Shown here in pieces: positions 4,365-61,903 of a DNA stretch of 64,000 bases. The position numbers were made by a program, and so were the translations under genes. Within the stretch, counting starts at the first letter, position 1. Every line of letters starts with the position of its first letter. This DNA comes from Singulisphaera sp. (GTDB lineage Bacteria; Planctomycetota; Planctomycetia; Isosphaerales; Isosphaeraceae). Location of the stretch: the NCBI GenBank assembly GCA_027451445.1, contig DAIDJG010000420.1, positions 1 through 64,000 on the forward strand, in the 5' to 3' direction. Below the pieces are notes generated by a model. The model was not told where the DNA came from, ran no database searches, and saw only the letters and a list, made by a program, of their open reading frames with translations.

Positions 4365-7226
4365 ATGATGTCCTGCCGTCGAATCCTCTCCAACTGGACA
4401 ACCTGGTTGACGATCATCGCACTCTGCTCAAGCGTGGATGTGTTTGGACAAGATCACGGCCCGTCCGACGCCCCGCGCGCTCATGATCCTCGGCTCGTCG
4501 TCGACCTTTTCTGCGCGGCACCACAGATCGTCCATCCGATCGCCCTCGATTTTGACGCGAACGGCCGCTTGCTCGTCATCGAGAGCCACACGCATTTCCG
4601 CCCTTCGGGATACGAGGGACCGCCATCCGATCGTGTCCGCGTCCTCGAGGACACTGACGGCGATGGCAATGCGGATCGGTTTAGCACGTTTTACGAAGGT
4701 ACGCGGTTCACGATGGACATCGCGACCTACTTCGATCGCTCGGTCTACCTCGCGACTCGCAACGAAATTCTCCGTTTGCGCGACCTCGACGGCGACGGCA
4801 AGGCCGAGGACGCCCAGCGTATCGTGTTTCTCGACACCGCGGGCAATTATCCTCATAACGGTCTCTCCGGTCTCGCTTTCGATTCGAGCGGCGACCTGCT
4901 CTTCGGCATGGGCGAGAACCTGGGCGCGAGCTATACGCTGTCCGGCCAGGACGGAGTCAAATTCACCGGGGGCGGAGAGGGAGGGAGTATTTACCGATGC
5001 TCGCCACTGGGCAAGAATCTTCGCCGCGTCGCAACGGGATTCTGGAATCCATTCGGGTTGTGCCGCGACATCTTCGGGCGCTTTTTCGCGGTCGACAACG
5101 ATCCCGATTCAATGCCCCCTTGCCGCCTTGTCCACGTCGTTGAAGGGGGGGACTACGGCTACCAATTTCGCTATGGCCGCTCGGGCCGGCACGTCTTCCA
5201 GGCCTGGAACGGCGAGCTGCCCGGAACCTTGCCGATGGTCAGCGGCACGGGTGAAGCACCCTGCGAGGTCATCGCGTATGAGTCGGACGGCCTGCCTCAG
5301 GAGTATGTCGGCAATCTGTTTGTTCCCACCTGGGCCGATCACAGGATCGAACGATTCGTACTCAAAGCGCGCGGGGCGTCCGTGGTTGCGGAGCCGGAGC
5401 CCTTCGTCCAGGGCGGAAAGGACTTTCGTCCGTCCGGCCTGGCCGCGGCGCCGGACGGCTCTTTCTACGTTAGCGACTGGGTCCTCCGTGATTACAACCT
5501 CCACGGACGCGGGGCCGTCTGGCACGTGCGTTGGAAAGACGCGGCTCGAGTTGACCGGCCCGCAGACGCTACGACCGCCTTGCACCGTGCGCACGGTCCC
5601 TGGCGCGAGTCCGCCGCACGGCGGCTGGCGCGAACGGATGAGGGGCGCGAGACGCTTCGCAAGGGGCTCGCGAACGACAGTTCGGTGAGGCTACGTGCCA
5701 CGAGCTTGACTGCGCTCGTGGACAGCAGCGACTCGCAGGTTGATCTGGAACGCGTCGCCGAGAAAGACTCCGTTCCATCCCTCCGCGCGATCGCGGTTCG
5801 AGCGCTGGTGGCGCGCGGAGGCGACGTCGCGCGTTTCGTCGACGCAGGAAATCCAGCGGAGGTCCGTTGCGAGGCGATCCGCGGACTGAAGGGAAAAGAT
5901 GCGCTGGCACAATGGCTGGCCGTTTTGAAGGACGACGACCGGTTCCTGCGGAATGCTGCCGTACAGGCACTCGCCCACGCGCCCGAATTACTTTCGAGCG
6001 TCGATCGTGGGTCGCTGTCTGATCCGCTTCAACGCGTCGGGCTCCTGCTGGCCCAGCGCGCGTCGGGTTCGTCCGACGGCGTCAAGCTGATCCCCGAATT
6101 CCTGGCAGATCCCGATGAGGACGTGCGCTTTCTGGCCGTGAAATGGATTGCCGATGAGAAACTCGAAAGCTACAAATCCCGGCTCGTCGAGGCGCTCAAG
6201 GACACGCGCCTCAACGTTCGCATGTACTCGGCCCTGTCCACCGCGCTCGCGCGGTTGAATGGGCAAGATGTGAGCGAGTCGAACATGGGCGATTACTTCT
6301 TCGTTCGCCTGGCCGACGACCGAAGCCCCCTCGCCTTGCGCGTTAAGGCGCTCCAGCTCATGCCGGCGAACCATCCTCGATTGACGCTCGATCTGCTCTC
6401 GAGGTTGCTCAACCAGGGCGAGCCCGCCTTGCAAGAAGAGGCGGTCAGGGCGCTCGGTGAGCACCGCGATTCCCGTCGTTGGGACCTGTTGCTCGGCGCC
6501 GCTTGCGATTCGAAGAAGACCGTAGCCGTTCGCGCACAGGCGATCGTTGAGCTCGCGAGTCACGCAGACGCCGTGCGCGGCCAATTGTTCCAGTTTGTAG
6601 AAAGCGACATACCAACCTTGCGCGACGAAGCGCTCCGGGCCCTCATTGGAACAGCGCTTTCTCAAGACGAAAACAAGCGTCTGGACGCCATTGGCACCCG
6701 CGCACCAGAGGCCGCTCCATTGGTTCGTCGACTGCTCGGCCAGCCCTTGAACGAGGGCCGGCCGCCGCTCGACGACCTTGATGGCTGGATGACGCGGCTT
6801 CGGGGCCCGTCCCAAATTGAGGCAGGCCGGCGCGTGTTTGCACATGCCAAACTGGCAGCTTGCTCGCGCTGCCACCGAGTGGAGGGCCGCGGTAAGGACG
6901 TAGGACCCGACCTGAGTACGATTGGACGGCGCGAGCGCAAACAGATCCTCGAATCCATTCTCCAGCCGAGCGCTTCGGTTGGTCCCAGCTATCAGAACTG
7001 GCAGATCGCGACCGTCGACGGCCGAGTGTTGACGGGCCTCCTGGTCAAGACCGACCTCGATCAGGTCACCTTCGTCGATCCGAAGGGGACTCCGTTCAGC
7101 CTGGGCACTTCCGAAATTGCCGAGCGTCGGGCGCTTTCAACATCGATCATGCCCGCAGGATTCGCCGACCTCCTGACCGACCAGGAGCTCCGTGACCTGC
7201 TCGCCTACCTTAGCGCCCAGCGCTAA
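4365..7226 (+). CDS. PVC-type membrane-bound dehydrogenase with HEAT repeats and cytochrome c-like heme-binding domain
   Basis: Beta-propeller dehydrogenase start (DPRLVVDLFCAAPQIVHPIALDFDANGRLLVIESHTHFRP), HEAT-like middle, C-terminal heme motif CSRCH. Confidence 0.85.
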   Translation: MMSCRRILSNWTTWLTIIALCSSVDVFGQDHGPSDAPRAHDPRLVVDLFCAAPQIVHPIALDFDANGRLLVIESHTHFRPSGYEGPPSDRVRVLEDTDGDGNADRFSTFYEGTRFTMDIATYFDRSVYLATRNEILRLRDLDGDGKAEDAQRIVFLDTAGNYPHNGLSGLAFDSSGDLLFGMGENLGASYTLSGQDGVKFTGGGEGGSIYRCSPLGKNLRRVATGFWNPFGLCRDIFGRFFAVDNDPDSMPPCRLVHVVEGGDYGYQFRYGRSGRHVFQAWNGELPGTLPMVSGTGEAPCEVIAYESDGLPQEYVGNLFVPTWADHRIERFVLKARGASVVAEPEPFVQGGKDFRPSGLAAAPDGSFYVSDWVLRDYNLHGRGAVWHVRWKDAARVDRPADATTALHRAHGPWRESAARRLARTDEGRETLRKGLANDSSVRLRATSLTALVDSSDSQVDLERVAEKDSVPSLRAIAVRALVARGGDVARFVDAGNPAEVRCEAIRGLKGKDALAQWLAVLKDDDRFLRNAAVQALAHAPELLSSVDRGSLSDPLQRVGLLLAQRASGSSDGVKLIPEFLADPDEDVRFLAVKWIADEKLESYKSRLVEALKDTRLNVRMYSALSTALARLNGQDVSESNMGDYFFVRLADDRSPLALRVKALQLMPANHPRLTLDLLSRLLNQGEPALQEEAVRALGEHRDSRRWDLLLGAACDSKKTVAVRAQAIVELASHADAVRGQLFQFVESDIPTLRDEALRALIGTALSQDENKRLDAIGTRAPEAAPLVRRLLGQPLNEGRPPLDDLDGWMTRLRGPSQIEAGRRVFAHAKLAACSRCHRVEGRGKDVGPDLSTIGRRERKQILESILQPSASVGPSYQNWQIATVDGRVLTGLLVKTDLDQVTFVDPKGTPFSLGTSEIAERRALSTSIMPAGFADLLTDQELRDLLAYLSAQR

Positions 7227-11153: not shown

Positions 11154-12140
11154 ATGCGCTTCAGGAACTATCTCGCTGTCTTCGTGCTCGCGTCCGTTGC
11201 TTTTGGGCAGTCGGTGCTCTGCGGCCAAGAACTGAACCCATCCGAACGTCCGCAAATTCGATCGCTCAACGTCGTCATCCTGTCGACGATGCTGACCGAC
11301 AACAAGGGCGTGGGCGAGTGGGGCTTCTCGGCGCTGGTCGAGGCCGACGGCCACCGGCTTCTCTTCGACACGGGGGCACGGCCCCAGACCGTCCTGCTCA
11401 ATGCCCGAGAGCTCGGCGTAAACCTTTCTGACGTGAGCGAAGTCATTTTGAGCCACCATCATGGCGATCACACGGGTGGCCTCCTCACGTTGCGGCGCGA
11501 GTACCAGAAGCGAAATCCTCAGGCGCTTTCGCGTGCGTACGTCGGTCCCGGCATCTTTTTCAGCCGTCCTCGTGAAGACGGCAGCGAGTCGAACGAGACG
11601 GTCGAATTGAAGACGCTCTACGAAGAGAGCGGCGGTTCGTTTGTCACGATCGACAAGCCGACTGCCATCTTTCCCGGCGCCTGGCTTACGGGAACTGTCC
11701 CGCGAGTCCATCCTGAACGAAACTGGAGCGGAAAGGGAAAGGTCCGGACGCCCGAGGGCCTGGTTGAGGACACCTTGCCCGAAGACATGTCGTTGGTGCT
11801 CGAAACCGTGCGCGGTCTCGTAATCATCTCCGGTTGCGGTCATGCGGGCATCATTAACACATTGGAATTCGCCCGGAATTCGGTTCGTAAGGCACCTGTG
11901 CATGCCGCGCTGGGCGGTTTCCATCTGTTCGCCGCGGACGAGCCCACGATCGAGTGGACGGCGGGCAAGCTGCGCGACATGGGGGTCACGAACCTGATCG
12001 GTGCGCACTGCACCGGGGTCGAAGCCGTTTATTCGTTGCGCCAACGCGTCGGCCTGGATCGGCGTACATGCGTCGTGGGGGCCGTGGGGGCTGGTTATGA
12101 CCTCAAGAAGGGAATCCGTGCCGGCCTGATCGCGCACTGA
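11154..12140 (+). CDS. MBL-fold metallohydrolase (secreted)
   Basis: SHHHGDHTGGL metal-binding motif, N-terminal signal peptide, GCGHAGIINTL. Confidence 0.85.
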   Translation: MRFRNYLAVFVLASVAFGQSVLCGQELNPSERPQIRSLNVVILSTMLTDNKGVGEWGFSALVEADGHRLLFDTGARPQTVLLNARELGVNLSDVSEVILSHHHGDHTGGLLTLRREYQKRNPQALSRAYVGPGIFFSRPREDGSESNETVELKTLYEESGGSFVTIDKPTAIFPGAWLTGTVPRVHPERNWSGKGKVRTPEGLVEDTLPEDMSLVLETVRGLVIISGCGHAGIINTLEFARNSVRKAPVHAALGGFHLFAADEPTIEWTAGKLRDMGVTNLIGAHCTGVEAVYSLRQRVGLDRRTCVVGAVGAGYDLKKGIRAGLIAH

Positions 12141-12164
12141 CGGCTGACCGAACGGCCGCGCGAC

Positions 12165-13019
12165 TCACTCCGCATAACCCGGCGACGCCGAGAACGCCAG
12201 GGCGAGCGCAATTCCAACGGGGATGAGCGTCGCGAATTCGGTGACGAGAACCACTTTCCAGGTCGCCAGACGCTCCATTCGTCCCAGGCGCGATACCCAA
12301 AACGCGGCGGGAGCGGACACCAGCGCGACCGCGGCCGAAGCTGGCAGCGCCGCGTAGATGAAGCTGTTGAGGAGGAGCGCTCCAAACGTCGCTACCATGA
12401 CCGGTACCGTCCCGAGGAGCATCGGCGACCCTAGCTTCAGGAGCACCATCGCAGCAACGGCAGCAGCGAGCACTGCGCTCAATTGACCAAGCGCCAGGCT
12501 TCCTGACACGACGAGCGCGATCGCGATCCCAAATCCGACGGTTAGCAGCGGAACGCCCAACCGCGCCCCGGACAGCCGATCCGCGAGCCCGCTCAGGTTG
12601 GTCCAAGATGCCAGGGCGATCAGGCCGTACACCACGAGGCAGACCGTGCTCGGCCGGTTCTCGCTCGACTCCGCGAAGAGCGGCCCGAGAAGCGCGCTCA
12701 AGACGAGCGCCGTGAGGAGCAAGCGATTCTCCCAGAGCGTCCAACTGGGACCCGGCCAGATTGACTCCAGGATCCCCAATATGGCCGCTAACCCCGCGAG
12801 CCACGGAATGCGATCCGTGACATCAAGCGGCGGAAACGTGGGCGAGGCGATTGCGGCGTGACCTACGACATAACCGACTCCAACCGCGAGGGCCGCGGCA
12901 GCATGGTCCGCTCTCTCGATTCCAAGGCGACGCCCGAGCCAACCTGCGCCGATCATCACCAGCCCCGCGCTGACAAACGGCAATACCAGTGTGGCCAGCA
13001 TCATCCCCGCCGGGGACAT
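12165..13019 (-). CDS. Multi-pass membrane protein of unknown function
   Basis: Hydrophobic throughout; start MSPAGMMLATLVLPFVSAGLVMIGAGWLGRRLG. Confidence 0.6.
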   Translation of the reverse strand: MSPAGMMLATLVLPFVSAGLVMIGAGWLGRRLGIERADHAAAALAVGVGYVVGHAAIASPTFPPLDVTDRIPWLAGLAAILGILESIWPGPSWTLWENRLLLTALVLSALLGPLFAESSENRPSTVCLVVYGLIALASWTNLSGLADRLSGARLGVPLLTVGFGIAIALVVSGSLALGQLSAVLAAAVAAMVLLKLGSPMLLGTVPVMVATFGALLLNSFIYAALPASAAVALVSAPAAFWVSRLGRMERLATWKVVLVTEFATLIPVGIALALAFSASPGYAE

Positions 13020-24997: not shown

Positions 24998-25045
<48 letters not shown>

Positions 25046-25279: not shown

Positions 25280-25352
25280 AGCGCGGTAGAGCAGTTGGCG
25301 GCTCGCTGGGCTCATAACCCGGAGGTCGGCGGTTCGAGTCCGCCCCGCGTCA
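25280..25352 (+). tRNA. Phage-borne initiator-like tRNA-Met (CAT)
   Basis: Cloverleaf: AGCGCGG TA GAGC AGTTGGCG GCTC G CTGGG CTCATAA CCCGG AGGTC GGCGG TTCGAGT CCGCC CCGCGTC A. Unpaired 1:72, A11:T24, GGG/CCC anticodon stem base. Confidence 0.85.
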
Positions 25353-25547
25353 CTCTTTTTCGCACGCTTAAAACCTTTTCGAACCGTGAACCCGGCGCGA
25401 CGGATTCTGTTGGCGAAGAACCCTGATGTGTTGCTCTTGCCTATTGCGTTGAATAGCCAACAGCGAGCGATGCCACCCCGATGTCTGCATGAGGTTCTCG
25501 CAAAGTTAATCGCAGGTCTTTAGCCGTTCGAAAGTTACGCGGCTGCC

Positions 25548-25655
25548 CTTTCCGCGACCTCACCGTCGCGGCCCCATTGAAGCTCGCCGCCAAAGCGATC
25601 GTCCCGGCCGCAATAGAGACTTTCCGCGACCTCACCGTCGCGGCCCCATTGAAGC
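25548..25655 (+). CRISPR. Mini-CRISPR array: two identical 36-bp repeats, one 36-bp spacer, no cas genes in window
   Basis: Repeat CTTTCCGCGACCTCACCGTCGCGGCCCCATTGAAGC at 25548-25583 and 25620-25655; internal CCGCGAC/GTCGCGG stem; 3' ATTGAAGC resembles the ATTGAAAC crRNA handle. Spacer TCGCCGCCAAAGCGATCGTCCCGGCCGCAATAGAGA. Confidence 0.85.
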
Positions 25656-29464: not shown

Positions 29465-29823
29465 GCGCGGGAAGCAACGCACCGGCGGCGCCGGCTCCCA
29501 AGCCGTTCTTGAACCGGGTCGCGAATGGATTTGGGCAGGCCCTGGGGACGGTGGGCAAGGTGCTGGGTGAGATCGGCTCGGAAGTCAAAGCCGGCTGGAG
29601 CTCCGTCGCTCCGGCGGTCGAGGCGGAAGCCAAGGTGATCGGCGGCCAGTTGCTCAAGGCTGAAGAGCAGGCCCTCGCGCCTGAGATCACGGCGGCGGTA
29701 ACTGCGGCGGTGGCGGCCGAGGCGCCGGCCCTGGCTCCGATCGCGGGGACGGTGGCCAGTGAGGTTGTGCAGCTCGGGGAACGTGTGGCCGAGGGTGTGG
29801 TCGATGGAGCAGCCAAGTCATGA
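29461..29823 (+). CDS. Alanine-rich hypothetical protein
   Basis: ATGA overlap with upstream gene; amphipathic Ala/Glu-rich sequence. Confidence 0.5.
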   Translation: MSAGSNAPAAPAPKPFLNRVANGFGQALGTVGKVLGEIGSEVKAGWSSVAPAVEAEAKVIGGQLLKAEEQALAPEITAAVTAAVAAEAPALAPIAGTVASEVVQLGERVAEGVVDGAAKS

Positions 29824-30065
29824 AGATCAAGCAAGACGAGCTCGACAACCTGTTCGCGTACCATCCTCCTACCGACTCTCAGCGCAAGCGGTATGAGGAA
29901 CTCCGCGCGGGTGCCAAGGCGTTCGCCGAACTGGTAGTCAGGCTCACGCCGGGTTGTGCTGACCAGCGTGCGGCCGTGCGTCATATCCGTGAAGCGGTGA
30001 TGACGGCGAACGCTGCCATCGCGTGCGAACCGGATCCCGATTACATCGAGTCCGAGGCAGGCTGA
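29820..30065 (+). CDS. Acb2/Tad1-hairpin family protein (putative cyclic-nucleotide sponge, anti-CBASS/anti-Thoeris)
   Basis: DNLFAYHPPTDSQRKRYEELRAGAKAFAELVVRLTPGCADQRAAVRHIREAVMTANAAIAC fits the F-YH-P...RYE-IR--AK-FA--I....P.S....A...I-EAVM-ANAAIA signature. Confidence 0.82.
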   Translation: MKIKQDELDNLFAYHPPTDSQRKRYEELRAGAKAFAELVVRLTPGCADQRAAVRHIREAVMTANAAIACEPDPDYIESEAG

Positions 30066-30072
30066 TCCGGTT

Positions 30073-30402
30073 GTGCCTCGTCGTGTGCCCACCTATCGAA
30101 AGCCGTTTGCTGACGCGGGTCGCCAGCTCGCACGTGCGGCGTACGAACGGCGTCAGCAACGGCTCAATGACAATGCCTTCTACAACGGCGCCAAGTGGCG
30201 GCGGCTGCGGCTCAAGTTCCTCATGGAGCATCCGCTCTGCTGTCGGTGCGACAAGGAAGGCAGACCATCCGCGGCCACGGTCGTCGACCACGTCAAGCCC
30301 CGACGTGCTCACCCTGACCTGGAGTACGACTGGGACAACCTACAAGCGCTGTGCGCTCGTCACCACGGTGAGAAGCGAGCCGAGGAGAAGCCCCGCCCTT
30401 GA
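30073..30402 (+). CDS. HNH endonuclease
   Basis: FYNGAKWRRLRLKFLMEHPLCCRC...VVDHVKPRRAHPDLEYDWDNLQALCARHHGEK. Confidence 0.9.
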   Translation: MPRRVPTYRKPFADAGRQLARAAYERRQQRLNDNAFYNGAKWRRLRLKFLMEHPLCCRCDKEGRPSAATVVDHVKPRRAHPDLEYDWDNLQALCARHHGEKRAEEKPRP

Positions 30403-30514: not shown

Positions 30515-30757
30515 TTACCAAAGGAAATCGGCCTTCACCTTCCGCATGCCGGCGAGCTTCTTGGCGGCGCGGTCGCGAACGGCAAGGTACGGGTTCTCGA
30601 TGGGGTTGCCCGTCCGCGGGTGGGCGACGATGGCGCCGTGCTGGTCGATGTTGGTGCTCGCCTCGCGGTACTCAATGAAGGCATCGGCGTACATTACGGC
30701 GGCGTCTTTGCGGGTGCCGGCGGCAATCAGTTTCTCAACGATCTCGGCTTTCGTCAT
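30515..30757 (-). CDS. P27/terminase-small-subunit-like short protein
   Basis: MTKAEIVEKLIAAGTRKDAAVMYADAFIEYREASTNIDQHGAIVAHPRTGNPIENPYLAVRDRAAKKLAGMRKVKADFLW; ATGA overlap with upstream gene stop. Confidence 0.55.
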   Translation of the reverse strand: MTKAEIVEKLIAAGTRKDAAVMYADAFIEYREASTNIDQHGAIVAHPRTGNPIENPYLAVRDRAAKKLAGMRKVKADFLW

Positions 30758-31356
30758 TTGGCCCACGTTTTGATCCCCTCGAACATCGTCAATTGAGACT
30801 GCTCGAACGCTTTACCGACCTGGGTGGCATTGCTCGCATCGACGCGGCTGTACTTGCGCGGCAAGACGGGGAGCTCGTCCTCGATGCGCTCGACGAGGGC
30901 GAAGTCCTCGCCGCCTTCGGTGATATCCAACTGCTCGAAGCGCGGGTTGAAGTTCAGGTTCATCGAACCGCGGAGCAAGAGGCGGAAGTTCTCGTTCCAG
31001 ACGCGGGCGATCTTCGCATGATTGAGGCAGATCCGAACCTGGGACTCGCCGAATTGCTTCCGCCAGTTCTCGATAATCGTCGCGTTGCGGTGGTCTGCGG
31101 AGCGGTCGATCACCAGGCGGGCGCCGAGGATATCGGCGCGGCTCATCAGGCCGGCCATTGCTTCGACCTCGTATTCGGCAATCGTCCACGTCCACACGCT
31201 GATCTGGCTCGGTCCAATCTCACGAAGGCAGTGGAAAATCGCGTCAATCATCGAGAATTGGCCCCGAGTCACGGCAAAAAGGCTCATTTCCCGTTTAATC
31301 GGCCCGATTGTCTCGGCGGCGGACCGGAATCCCTCGACAACGCGTTTTCGCTTCAT
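30754..31356 (-). CDS. Phospholipase D-like (HKD) nuclease-type protein
   Basis: CLNHAKIARVWNENFRLLLRGSMNLNFNPRFEQLDI matches an HxK...GSxNLN..P.-E PLD signature. Confidence 0.65.
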   Translation of the reverse strand: MKRKRVVEGFRSAAETIGPIKREMSLFAVTRGQFSMIDAIFHCLREIGPSQISVWTWTIAEYEVEAMAGLMSRADILGARLVIDRSADHRNATIIENWRKQFGESQVRICLNHAKIARVWNENFRLLLRGSMNLNFNPRFEQLDITEGGEDFALVERIEDELPVLPRKYSRVDASNATQVGKAFEQSQLTMFEGIKTWAK

Positions 31357-31391
31357 TTTGACCCCCTATCGGCACTGTAAACCACTACTCT

Positions 31392-31419
31392 ATTATACTA
31401 CATACATATAGAAAGTCAA
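31392..31419 (-). promoter_or_regulatory. Near-consensus sigma70 promoter driving the PLD-like cassette
   Basis: Minus strand TTGACT-N16-TATAAT, followed by AGGGGG RBS before ATG at 31356. Confidence 0.75.
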
Positions 31420-31430
31420 CAGATAAAGTT

Positions 31431-31853
31431 ATGGCAAAACGCGGTGCCAAACCGAAGAAAACCCGAAAACCGAAGCTCCCGCCGGCGGTGTGGCGCTGCC
31501 CGGCACACCTCGACGGGGTGGCGGCGGACGAATACACGCGGATCGTTGGCGTGCTGCGGGAAGCGGGTGTGCTCGATCGGACGACACCGCGGCTGGTCGA
31601 GCTCTATGCGATCAATTACGCGCTGTTGCGTCAGGCGTACGTCGTCATCGAACGCGACGGGCCGACGGTCGAGAGCGACCGGGGGAACGTGGCGGAGCAT
31701 CCGGCCATCAAGACGCTCAACGCGGCCACGATTCGGATTCGAGGGTTGCTCAACGACTTCGGCCTCTCGCCGGCGTCGGCCAAGCTCACGGCGCCGACGG
31801 AGAAGTCGGGCGACAAGAACCCCTGGGAAGGCATCTTGAACGTTGTCGGGTAA
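31431..31853 (+). CDS. Terminase small subunit, P27 family
   Basis: LVELYAINYALLRQAYVVIERDGPTVESDRGNVAEHPAIKTLNAATIRIRGLLNDFGLSPASAKL, directly upstream of TerL. Confidence 0.85.
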   Translation: MAKRGAKPKKTRKPKLPPAVWRCPAHLDGVAADEYTRIVGVLREAGVLDRTTPRLVELYAINYALLRQAYVVIERDGPTVESDRGNVAEHPAIKTLNAATIRIRGLLNDFGLSPASAKLTAPTEKSGDKNPWEGILNVVG

Positions 31854-33405
31854 GGCAGCCAAAACGCGGAAGGTCGACCCGGGCGGTCAGGCGGTCAGGT
31901 TCATTAACAACCTCTCGCACACCGGGGATTACATCGGTCAGAGATTCCGACTGCGGGACTGGCAAGAGACCTTCGTGCGCAAACTGTTCGGCACGCTCCG
32001 GCCGGACGGCGGGCGACAGTATCGGAAAGGGTTCCTCGCCCTTCCCCGAAAGCAGGGCAAGACGGAGCTCGTCGCGGCGATCCTGCTGTATCTGATGCTG
32101 GGTACGGGACGCAAGGAACAACGGATCTACTCGGCGTCGGGGGACCGCAATCAAGCGAGCCTGATCTTCGGCGCCGCGGCGTCGATGGTCGAGAACGACC
32201 CGCAACTCTCTCAGGTCTGCACCGTCTACCACGGTTACAAGAAGATCACTTGCGATGGGATGGGGTCGACCTATCAGGCCCTCTCGAGTGAAGCCAAGCT
32301 CAAGCACGGCCTTGGCCCGTCGGCGGTGCTGTTTGACGAGGTTCACGTCCTGCCGAACCGTCAACTGCACGACATCCTCACGACGGGGTTCGGTGCGCGG
32401 CGCGATCCGTTGACGCTGTACATCTCGACGGCGGGGTTCGATCGGGCGTCACTCTGTTACGAGCTCTGGCAGCATGCGCGGCACGTTCGGGACGGCATCG
32501 TCACTGACCCGACGTTCCTGGCCACGCTCTTCGAGGCGGATCCCGAAGACGACTGGACGAGCGAAGAGACCTGGTTCAAGGCAATGCCGGCTCTGGGCGA
32601 TTTCTGCTCGCTGGAGTTCATCCGGGAAGAGTTCCATAAGGCGAAGACTCAACCGTCCTTCGAGAACACGTTCAAGCAGTTGTACTTGAACCTCTGGACC
32701 GAGCAAGCAACGCGGTGGCTGCAAACCGAGCGGTGGATGGCGTGCGCGGGCCTCGAGGAGACCGAGCTCGACGGGCGCGAGTGCTATGCCGGTCTCGACC
32801 TGGGCGTCACTCGGGACATGGCGGCACTGGCGCTGATCTTCGCGAACGACCTGGGCGGGTTCGACGTGGCGGTGCGCTACTGGGTGCCGATCGACGGAAT
32901 CTGGAAGGAAGAGCCGCGCAACTTCGAACTGTATCGCGACTGGCACAACCGCGGGTTCCTGGAGTTCACGCCCGGGGAAGCCACCGACTTCGACCAGATC
33001 GAGAACGACATTGTCGAGGTTAACCGGCGGTGGGCGATCCGGTCGCTGTTCGCCGATCGGGCCTACGCGTCGCACATGCTCTCCCGGCTGTTCAACTATC
33101 ACGAGCTGCCGGTCCAGGGGATTCCGCAAGGGCCAGTGACGCTCAACGAGGCGATGGTCAAGGTCGAGACCATGCTCCTGAATCAAACCATCCGGCACAC
33201 CGGGAACCCGGTGCTGAACTGGAACGTCGCGAACGCCAACGTCGAGCGCAACAAGACGGGGCTGATGTACCTCAACAAGTCGGGGACGACGTTCCGAATC
33301 GACGGCGTTGCGGCACTGGTGAACGCGGTTACCGCGGCGATCGCGGACGGGGCGACGGATGCGGGGCCGTCTGTGTACGACACGCGCGGAGTCTTTGTCC
33401 TTTAA
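31843..33405 (+). CDS. Terminase large subunit
   Basis: FLALPRKQGKTELVAAILLYLML (Walker A-like), VLFDEVHV (Walker B), CYAGLDLGVTRDMAAL nuclease motif. Confidence 0.95.
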   Translation: MSGKAAKTRKVDPGGQAVRFINNLSHTGDYIGQRFRLRDWQETFVRKLFGTLRPDGGRQYRKGFLALPRKQGKTELVAAILLYLMLGTGRKEQRIYSASGDRNQASLIFGAAASMVENDPQLSQVCTVYHGYKKITCDGMGSTYQALSSEAKLKHGLGPSAVLFDEVHVLPNRQLHDILTTGFGARRDPLTLYISTAGFDRASLCYELWQHARHVRDGIVTDPTFLATLFEADPEDDWTSEETWFKAMPALGDFCSLEFIREEFHKAKTQPSFENTFKQLYLNLWTEQATRWLQTERWMACAGLEETELDGRECYAGLDLGVTRDMAALALIFANDLGGFDVAVRYWVPIDGIWKEEPRNFELYRDWHNRGFLEFTPGEATDFDQIENDIVEVNRRWAIRSLFADRAYASHMLSRLFNYHELPVQGIPQGPVTLNEAMVKVETMLLNQTIRHTGNPVLNWNVANANVERNKTGLMYLNKSGTTFRIDGVAALVNAVTAAIADGATDAGPSVYDTRGVFVL

Positions 33406-51234: not shown

Positions 51235-51325
51235 TCGAAATGTCTTCGCGGTGTCATCGCGAATATTCAGACCTTTTCACACTCTTGGTGTGCGCGGAGA
51301 TTCCGCGCGCCGGAAAGGAACGTCC

Positions 51326-51985
51326 GTGACGAAGTTCACGATCAAGGATCGTTGGAACGGCTCGACGCTCTTTGAGCGCGAAGCGAACTCCCTCAAGGAG
51401 TTGTTGATCGCGCTGGTTTCGGAGAGGACCAACCTCATCAGAGCCAACCTCATCAGAGCCAACCTCAGCGGGGCCGACCTCAGCGGGGCCGACCTCATCA
51501 GAGCCAACCTCAGCGGGGCCGACCTCAGCGGGACCAACCTCAGCGGGGCCAACCTCAGCGGGGCCGACCTCAGCGGGACCAACCTCATCAGAGCCAACCT
51601 CAGCGGGGCCGACCTCAGCGGGACCGACCTCAGCGGGACCGACCTCAGCGGGGCCGACTGGGCCGGAACGCGGGACGACTTTGTCTCCGTGTTGAACTCC
51701 TGCCCTGCCGAGGTCTCGGGTCTGAGAACCGCGATCGTCGAGGGCAGGATCGACGGCTCGACCTACACCGGAGCTTGCGCCTGTCTCGTCGGGACGATCG
51801 CCAACGTTCGCGGAGAAAGCCCCTACTCCCTCCCCGATTTGGCGCCGAACAATAACCGCCCTGCCGAGCGTTTCTTTCTGGGAATTCGCATCGGCGACAC
51901 GCCCGAGTCTAACCCGCTTTCGAAGCTCGCCGTCGAGTGGATCGACGCGTGGAGCGCCGAACGAACAGTGGCCTCTGTCGGCTAA
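51326..51985 (+). CDS. Pentapeptide-repeat protein
   Basis: 16 consecutive pentapeptides [20 protein letters not shown] ... ADWAG; GTG start with AAGGA RBS. Confidence 0.9.
51428..51667 (+). repeat. 15-bp tandem repeat tract encoding the pentapeptides
   Basis: 16 units of variants AACCTCAGCGGGGCC / GACCTCAGCGGGACC / AACCTCATCAGAGCC. Confidence 0.92.
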
Positions 51986-60055: not shown

Positions 60056-60379
60056 GTGAGTTCGCCCGCGGTCACACCACTGATCTTGCAACCTGGTGAA
60101 GCTGCAGCTCGGCTCGGCCTTACCCGCGCCGACCTGGTCGCGATCATCCGCCGGCGGCAATACGGCTTCACCGAGATCAAGCCCGGGGGTAAGCCCGGCG
60201 ATCGCGGCCCAAACCGGTGGGGTCTCACCGAGGCCCAGATCGCGGCGATCGTCCGCGGGCAGGCCAAGGTGCTGCCCGATCCGGCGGGCTCCGACAAGCC
60301 GGACCGGATCCCGGCGTCGACGAACCTTTCGCCAGACGGGAAATCCCGTTTACCGCGTATTGGCCGGGCGAGGATGTGA
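60056..60379 (+). CDS. HTH/excisionase-like small protein
   Basis: LQPGEAAARLGLTRADLVAIIRRRQYGFTEIKPGGKPGDRGPNRWGLTEAQIAAIVRG. Confidence 0.55.
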   Translation: MSSPAVTPLILQPGEAAARLGLTRADLVAIIRRRQYGFTEIKPGGKPGDRGPNRWGLTEAQIAAIVRGQAKVLPDPAGSDKPDRIPASTNLSPDGKSRLPRIGRARM

Positions 60380-61639
60380 ACGCACCCGGCCTGCGACAAG
60401 CTTCTCGGCCGCTGTCTGGAGGTGTGAGTCCAGCAAGTGGCCGTAGTGCTTGTAGATCATCTCTGGGCTCGTTCCTGTCAGCTCGGCCACGGTCGGCACG
60501 TCGACGCCCAACATCAAGAGCGACGATATCGCCGTGTGGCGCCAGCGGTAATTCACCAGCTTTTCGGCCCCTTGGTCACTGACCGCGACTCCCGCGAACC
60601 ATGCCTCTCGACCTGTCACCTTCTCCTTTCGCTTGATCCTCTCCCGTAACTCACCCTGGATCCCGATCAACTCTCGGCGAACGCGCAGAGTCGTCTTGGA
60701 CAGCACCGAACCACTTTCCCACGGTTCATCCGCGCCTTCTCCACCACGGCCGGCGCGGTGAATGAAGACCCATTCCTGGCTCGGCGGTGAAGCTGCGAGT
60801 CGTCGGAGCGCTCGAGTCAAGGAGGGCGTGAAGTAGATCGTTCGGGGCTTGCGCGTTTTTCGGCCTGCCTTCCACCGGTCATAGGGGATCACGCCTTTCG
60901 CGCACACGTGCCCGGCCGAAGTCGTCCACCCGTCCCAACGAATGTCGATCCACTTCAGCCGGCAGAGCTCCATCGGACGCGCGCCGGTCCGAATCAAGAC
61001 TCTCTGGAGTAGCAGGGTGTACCGATCGTAGCGGCCTCGAATCGACTTTCGATCGAACCTTCGTAGCCAGTGAGCGACAAAGGCCGCGGCTTCCTTCCTT
61101 TCGGCAAAGCGGGCCGGCGACTGGGGAACGCTCGGCAGGCGGAACCCCTGAGTCGGGTTGCTCGGAATCAGCTTCGCGGGCCGCACTGCCCAGTTCAGCG
61201 CCGCACGGGCCGAGGCGCAGACGTTCCGCGCGTACGTCGGCGAATAGGTTCCCTCGAGACGTTGCCCGAAAGCCGTCATGTCGTCTGGCTCGAGGCCTGC
61301 AACCGCTCGGGCGCCGAGGGCTCGACTGAAGATCCCAAGGTGAATCTGTTTGTTGGCGTATTCTGAGTTCGCCAGCTTCCCTTCGTTGCGAAGCCGCTCG
61401 GCATGTGCGAGGTAATGTTCGCAGACCATCGCGATCGTAGCCTCGCCGTCTGCGCAAGGGCCGGCCGCCTGGCGTCTGATCTCGCCCTCCATCCAATCCC
61501 AGGCCTTCCCCTCGTCCGCCTTGCCGATCTCGGCCGGGGCGAAGACTTCCCGGGCCCGTCCGTTTTCGTCGCGCTCCCCGATGTTCGCATACCACCTTTG
61601 TCGCTTGTCGTGCCATCGCGGCTTCGCTTGTCGAGGCAT
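60350..61639 (-). CDS. int: Tyrosine-type site-specific integrase
   Basis: RVLIRTGARPMELCRLKWIDIRWD; YRWRHTAISSLLMLGVDVPTVAELTGTSPEMIYKHYGH. Confidence 0.95.
   Translation of the reverse strand: MPRQAKPRWHDKRQRWYANIGERDENGRAREVFAPAEIGKADEGKAWDWMEGEIRRQAAGPCADGEATIAMVCEHYLAHAERLRNEGKLANSEYANKQIHLGIFSRALGARAVAGLEPDDMTAFGQRLEGTYSPTYARNVCASARAALNWAVRPAKLIPSNPTQGFRLPSVPQSPARFAERKEAAAFVAHWLRRFDRKSIRGRYDRYTLLLQRVLIRTGARPMELCRLKWIDIRWDGWTTSAGHVCAKGVIPYDRWKAGRKTRKPRTIYFTPSLTRALRRLAASPPSQEWVFIHRAGRGGEGADEPWESGSVLSKTTLRVRRELIGIQGELRERIKRKEKVTGREAWFAGVAVSDQGAEKLVNYRWRHTAISSLLMLGVDVPTVAELTGTSPEMIYKHYGHLLDSHLQTAAEKLVAGRVRSHPRPANTR

Positions 61640-61827: not shown

Positions 61828-61903
<76 letters not shown>

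Follow-up and report, generated by a model that had tools for sequence, protein, structure and literature searches.

The DNA analysed here, called the window, is a 64,000-nt stretch of the Singulisphaera sp. assembly GCA_027451445.1 (contig DAIDJG010000420.1). It contains a complete-looking prophage of 36.8 kb that lies in a tRNA-Arg gene and is bounded by perfect direct repeats (Table 1). In addition to an integrase, an HNH endonuclease and the small (TerS) and large (TerL) terminase subunits, the prophage encodes portal, protease and capsid proteins between its att sites. A preliminary description of this DNA had noticed two coupled minus-strand genes between the HNH gene and the TerS and TerL genes. 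Both were found in this interval by a check of the open reading frames (ORFs), as overlapping ORFs that are called g1 and g2 here. Homologous prophage cassettes are present in records of Paludisphaera soli, Isosphaeraceae and other Planctomycetales.

Table 1. Coordinates in the window of the g1-g2 cassette, its candidate transcription and translation signals, and the prophage that carries it.
Feature	Position	Strand	Evidence
attL of prophage	24998..25045		48-nt perfect repeat
HNH endonuclease of packaging operon	30073..30402	(+)	PF01844 E 2.7e-8
Terminator-like hairpin and U-run at g2 stop codon	30490..30519	(-)	z -3.45
g2, predicted minimal P27-TerS core protein	30515..30766	(-)	83 aa from GTG; PF05119, AF2, Foldseek BFVD
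g1, predicted single-HKD PLD-fold nuclease	30754..31356	(-)	200 aa; ORF, PHROG, AF2, Foldseek, residue conservation
g1 ribosome-binding site AGGGGG	31362..31367	(-)	sequence; 5 nt between its end and ATG
Promoter-like TTGACT-N16-TATAAT of cassette	31392..31419	(-)	consensus match 11/12 bases
Canonical P27 small terminase, TerS	31431..31853	(+)	PF05119 E 4.5e-18; TIGR01558 above cut-off
Large terminase, TerL	31843..33405	(+)	PF03354 and PF20441
Tyrosine integrase of prophage	60350..61639	(-)	PF00589
attR of prophage, inside tRNA-Arg gene	61828..61875		48-nt perfect repeat

Immediately 5' of the HNH gene, at 29820-30065 (+), lies the gene of an Acb2/Tad1-hairpin protein (PF24729, E 4e-14), which is likely an anti-CBASS cyclic-nucleotide sponge. 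Just inside attL, two perfect 36-nt repeats with 36 nt of unique sequence between them (25548-25655) resemble a one-spacer mini-CRISPR array, and the repeat is absent elsewhere in the assembly. The prophage also carries a tRNA-Met gene (25280-25353) and encodes a pentapeptide-repeat protein (51251-51985) whose DNA repeats with a 15-nt period.

The cassette appears to have transcription signals of its own. The promoter-like site upstream of g1 is the sole TTGACN/TATAAT site in the 64 kb, with a chance expectation of 0.01, and the intergenic stretch that holds it has a GC content of 35%, compared with 62% for the prophage. The preliminary description had singled out this site as the most consensus-like promoter and had pointed to the ribosome-binding site of g1; both observations are correct. 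At the other end of the cassette is a terminator-like hairpin that had escaped notice, and none of 200 shuffled sequences was equally stable when folded. Judging from these sequences, the promoter-like site and the hairpin with its U-run would give g1-g2 start and stop signals of its own, in agreement with the earlier proposal of an autonomous cassette independent of the late operon. An alternative start of g2, the ATG of an ATGA overlap, would give an ORF of 80 aa at 30515-30757 (-). In homologues, g1 and g2 mostly overlap by 13 or 4 nt, and 13 nt is the commonest arrangement.

A tree of g1 separates two kinds of loci. Cassettes with a short g2 (type B, 65 rows) form a single clade with a support of 99. 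Beside it lies a sister clade, type A, in which g1 is followed by a full-length P27 TerS and then by TerL, all on one strand. A promoter match of at least 10 of 12 bases occurs in 8 of 80 regions upstream of g1, as opposed to none of 244 regions upstream of other genes. These eight strong matches come from roughly five lineages, of which two do not belong to type B. The other 72 upstream regions, drawn from all types, have no strong sigma70-like site, and the same holds for most type-B cassettes. Base composition was considered as a sign of a recent foreign origin and gave no signal, the GC3 of g1 being that of TerL.

The AlphaFold (AF2) model of g1, with a pLDDT of 91, has the PLD fold. Its nearest solved folds in a Foldseek search of the PDB are SauUSI (E 7e-6), followed by the NgoAVII R protein, PPK and BfiI. 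The protein matches phrog_16945, annotated 'endonuclease' (E 3e-27), and no entry of Pfam or NCBIfam. Among 50 homologues, H113, S131, N137, R139 and E141 are invariant, and K115 and N133 are conserved at 90% or more. The HKD signature that had been proposed for this gene holds for the fold and for the conserved H113 and K115, but not for the Asp of the classical HxKx4D motif, which is replaced by Trp120 at a position that varies in homologues. BfiI likewise lacks this Asp. Taken together, residue conservation and the model identify g1 as a predicted PLD-fold nuclease with conserved catalytic residues. SauUSI, NgoAVII and BfiI are PLD-family restriction nucleases that carry DNA-binding or helicase domains of their own, whereas g1 consists of the nuclease domain alone and has a partner encoded separately. 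A search of plasmids found no g1, and PDB sequence searches with g1 and g2 profiles returned nothing useful. The g1 homologue of a Microcystis phage (L045, 4842-5417) is annotated as a polyphosphate kinase, probably because the PLD fold is common to PPK.

The second gene encodes a shortened relative of the P27 small terminase. It matches PF05119 with an E value of 1e-7 and 32.6 bits (cut-off 24.7), only over positions 25-77 of the 98 in the profile, and scores 18 bits against the equivalog TIGR01558, below the cut-off of 45.6. The AlphaFold model of g2 (pLDDT 94) consists of a helical hairpin and a beta turn. Foldseek assigned it the P27 TerS fold in BFVD with a TM score of 0.75; against the PDB, the same search gave only noise. 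The view that g2 is a second P27-like protein beside the real TerS is upheld by these matches and by the confirmed identity of its neighbour, and the fold predictions for the pair agree with a PLD protein and a P27 protein. In the profile alignment, g2 spans residues 36-107 of the TerS in the window, which has 140 aa, and residues 72-145 of a type-A TerS. The C-terminal motif typical of TerS is present in none of 65 g2 proteins, as against 22 of 26 canonical TerS proteins. The helix that follows the loop described below has a net charge of +2.6 in g2, compared with +0.3 in type A and +0.7 in canonical TerS.

The structure of the HK97 TerS ring is known (PMC9410871). DNA threads the tunnel of this ring, and recognition of the cos sequence falls to the N-terminal arm and the C-terminal segment (PMC11331095). 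The core and fold of g2 are homologous to those of the P27 TerS proteins (PF05119, TIGR01558), to which HK97 TerS belongs. Unlike them, g2 has neither the N-terminal arm nor the C-terminal segment, and it does not adjoin TerL. The alignments and the model indicate that g2 corresponds to a P27 small terminase stripped of its site-reading ends, down to the core that putatively forms the ring. The preliminary description had likened g2 to a packaging-site-recognition module, a role that does not hold, as the cos-reading parts are those that are missing; g2 is evidently not a packaging-site reader. We infer that it forms a ring on DNA, and with the arms lost and a basic helix on the tunnel side, this ring would be non-specific. 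The idea that g2 is the TerS of its own phage was rejected for type B, because its carriers either have a second TerS adjoining TerL or use another type of terminase. The window and many type-B loci have a canonical TerS as well as g2, and others have a Terminase_2 TerS.

The association between g1 and g2 is strong. The two are paired in about 95% of g1 homologues with sufficient flank, so the pair is conserved well beyond the window. At two loci (L067 and L099), g2 is inverted and still adjoins g1. A reverse test, independent of g1, was made by scanning IMG/VR with a DNA pattern of the motif PRTGxPxxNPY. It recovered 61 P27 ORFs with this motif, and g1 lies within 1.5 kb in 57. Among the other four, three are on contigs in which g1 falls just past the end of the retrieved sequence, and the fourth is a decayed remnant. 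No g1 was detected with three related P27 TerS proteins in which PSTG replaces PRTG. All 18 type-A TerS proteins and 70 of 77 g2 proteins have the PRTG loop. It is absent from all 22 TerS proteins that do not adjoin g1 and from both canonical TerS proteins located directly after a g1-g2 pair (L084, L118). This distribution suggests that the PRTGxPxxNP loop is a docking site for g1. Alternatively, the loop may reflect shared descent of a loop-bearing TerS clade. An apparent fusion of g2 at one locus (L237) proved to be an artefact, a stop-to-stop frame that runs antisense to a TerL-like one. By eye, a decayed g2 remnant remains there at about 5500-5740, with no g1, adjoining a GpA-like TerL frame.

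Close relatives of the nuclease gene occupy ordinary nuclease-TerS-TerL operons. The preliminary description did not mention these homologues, which point to an origin in packaging. Type A is always co-directional with TerL, whereas type B must have switched strand relative to TerL five times or more. In type B, the distances of g1 and g2 are correlated with an r of 0.47 (p 0.0005), and those of g1 and TerL only weakly (r 0.21, p 0.06); in type A, both values are high (0.84 and 0.68). More distant g1 homologues lie near terminase genes in phi16, Galaxy, BetterKatz and a Microcystis phage. Together with the type-A operons, they imply that the nuclease was originally an enzyme of the packaging neighbourhood and that type B is a decoupled offshoot. 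The type-A operons also suggest that the native job of the nuclease may be packaging. By eye, distant g1 homologues in planctomycete and lentisphaeral sequences (L197, L198, L060) are followed by a protein of 103-123 aa and a large terminase-like protein. This small protein may be an undescribed type of TerS.

Related nucleases occur in phages of Gordonia, Arthrobacter and Corynebacterium. Their NucT-like nuclease (endonuclease; phrog_16945) belongs to the g1 family, with 25-31% identity over the core, and its gene resembles g1 in adjoining the small terminase gene or lying a few genes off. The partner in these phages is the annotated TerS of the phage, whereas the partner of g1 is a truncated, extra TerS in an autonomous unit. 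In the open-access literature on NucT/PLD nucleases and terminases in phages, we found no function for phrog_16945 or the NucT-like family. Deposited phage genomes yielded only distant homologues of g1, with at most 31% identity, so type B is known here just from metagenomes, metagenome-assembled genomes and a few isolate genomes.

Type B is not tied to any one packaging machine. The terminases of its carriers are of the P27/HK97 kind in the window and at many other loci, Terminase_2 with Terminase_3 or another large terminase at L148, L151 and L153, Terminase_6N at L149 and GpA at L124. This spread among phages with quite different packaging machines suggests that the unit does a separate job. 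Type-B cassettes are inserted between HNH and TerS, between TerS and TerL, between TerL and portal, or upstream of HNH, on either strand, and many copies are distant from any terminase gene. Some lie in early operons, as after a RecE-like gene (L083), after primase/helicase (L105), or between integrase and RecT (L088). A relative with a TerL 48% identical to that of the window (G061) has HNH followed by TerS and no cassette, and a second prophage of the source genome (G000:C227, L190) has an HK97-type HNH-TerS-TerL order, again with no cassette. In G057, the TerL is 34% and g1 is 71% identical to that of the window, and the cassette occupies the matching junction in the same orientation. On ten integrase-bearing contigs, the median distance from cassette to integrase is 3.1 kb versus 8.9 kb expected (p 0.001 to 0.014). 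As far as comparison of these loci can tell, type B arose from a packaging pair of nuclease and TerS and is now a stand-alone cassette, in which g1 and g2 are co-inherited as a mobile unit independent of the carrier's terminase.

The explanation that we prefer is a tentative one, held at somewhat less than an even chance. It is that of a stand-alone accessory cassette, descended from a packaging operon in which the nuclease directly preceded a full-length small terminase, with interference with other phages or satellites as its likeliest use. The g2 ring would encircle DNA non-specifically, its PRTGxPxxNP loop would dock g1, and the complex would cut the encircled DNA. In the least certain step, the prophage would turn the cassette, as a weapon, on the DNA of rival phages or satellites, and g2 would perhaps join or mimic the P27 rings of these competitors. 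An accessory role is favoured by the autonomy of the cassette, its location and its indifference to the carrier's terminase. The preliminary description had also proposed packaging interference or superinfection immunity. Autonomy, nearness to integrases and indifference to terminase type lend that proposal circumstantial support, but PADLOC has no match for g1 or g2. It counts against interference that a poison of TerS would need to leave the P27 TerS of its carrier unharmed, and also that some type-B copies are inside early operons, a position that accords with a function in the life cycle of the phage itself. The idea that type-B cassettes lie in a defence neighbourhood was considered and set aside, since one of ten sampled neighbours had a PADLOC match, too few to count. 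In L081, this candidate defence protein, PDC-S31 of PADLOC (11934-12677), is encoded downstream of a type-B cassette, some 1 kb away. One small TerS-related protein of a mobile element, Rpp of the Gram-negative PICIs, acts on the TerS of another phage (PMC6739421). Rpp is a winged HTH protein encoded on a satellite, whereas g2 has the P27 core fold, comes with a nuclease and resides on a full phage with HNH, TerS, TerL, portal and capsid genes. We regard as unlikely, if conceivable, the more specific proposal that a terminase-derived, DNA-encircling ring was freed from the motor, now serves a PLD nuclease as its targeting or clamp subunit, and acts as a mobile inter-phage weapon on DNA during packaging.

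Interference is only slightly favoured over DNA processing in the carrier's own cycle. The cassette would then supply an auxiliary packaging or maturation nuclease that trims or cuts concatemers or branches, comparable to HNH gp74 of HK97, a packaging endonuclease that promotes cos cleavage (PMC9410871). The gene of gp74 adjoins the terminase, as does g1; its fold differs, and the prophage has its own HNH gene in addition to g1. This role is rather doubtful and yet close behind, because of the type-A operons and the several type-B copies in early DNA-metabolism operons. In type A, phi16, Galaxy and the Microcystis phage, g1 is located beside TerS with TerL mostly close, distant homologues precede a small protein and a large terminase-like protein, and many type-B copies lie at terminase-operon junctions. 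However, type B is found with several unrelated terminases, often on the opposite strand, and is missing in close relatives; its TerS part lacks the cos-reading ends, and an HNH gene is usually present as well. An early nuclease that attacks the host, scavenges nucleotides, or serves recombination or debranching appears improbable. Several copies do adjoin RecE-, RecT-, primase- or helicase-like genes, and early phage-encoded nucleases that inhibit the host exist (PMC12817073), but such a role leaves the obligatory TerS-derived partner unexplained, and copies are also found in late regions, in some cases running counter to them. In our judgement, very little recommends selfish homing, in which a free-standing nuclease would spread by cleaving alleles that lack the cassette, close to where it is inserted. 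The variety of insertion places on both strands speaks for homing, as does the junction and orientation shared by the window and G057 despite their divergent TerL proteins. Cassette-less HNH-TerS junctions exist, and cassette copies also occur at many other places. Against homing, many copies are remote from terminase genes; to our knowledge, no PLD nuclease is a homing enzyme, and a homing unit of two genes, one of them for a ring protein, has no precedent that we know of.

The distinction between g2 and a genuine small terminase has practical consequences. Annotation pipelines would label g2 as a terminase small subunit, so that phages appear to have two TerS genes, and this label would mask a separate nuclease module. 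If the model of a ring joined to a nuclease is true, packaging machinery has been exapted into a nuclease complex, and the cassette would offer a compact two-gene system for direct tests of the coupling between TerS and a nuclease.
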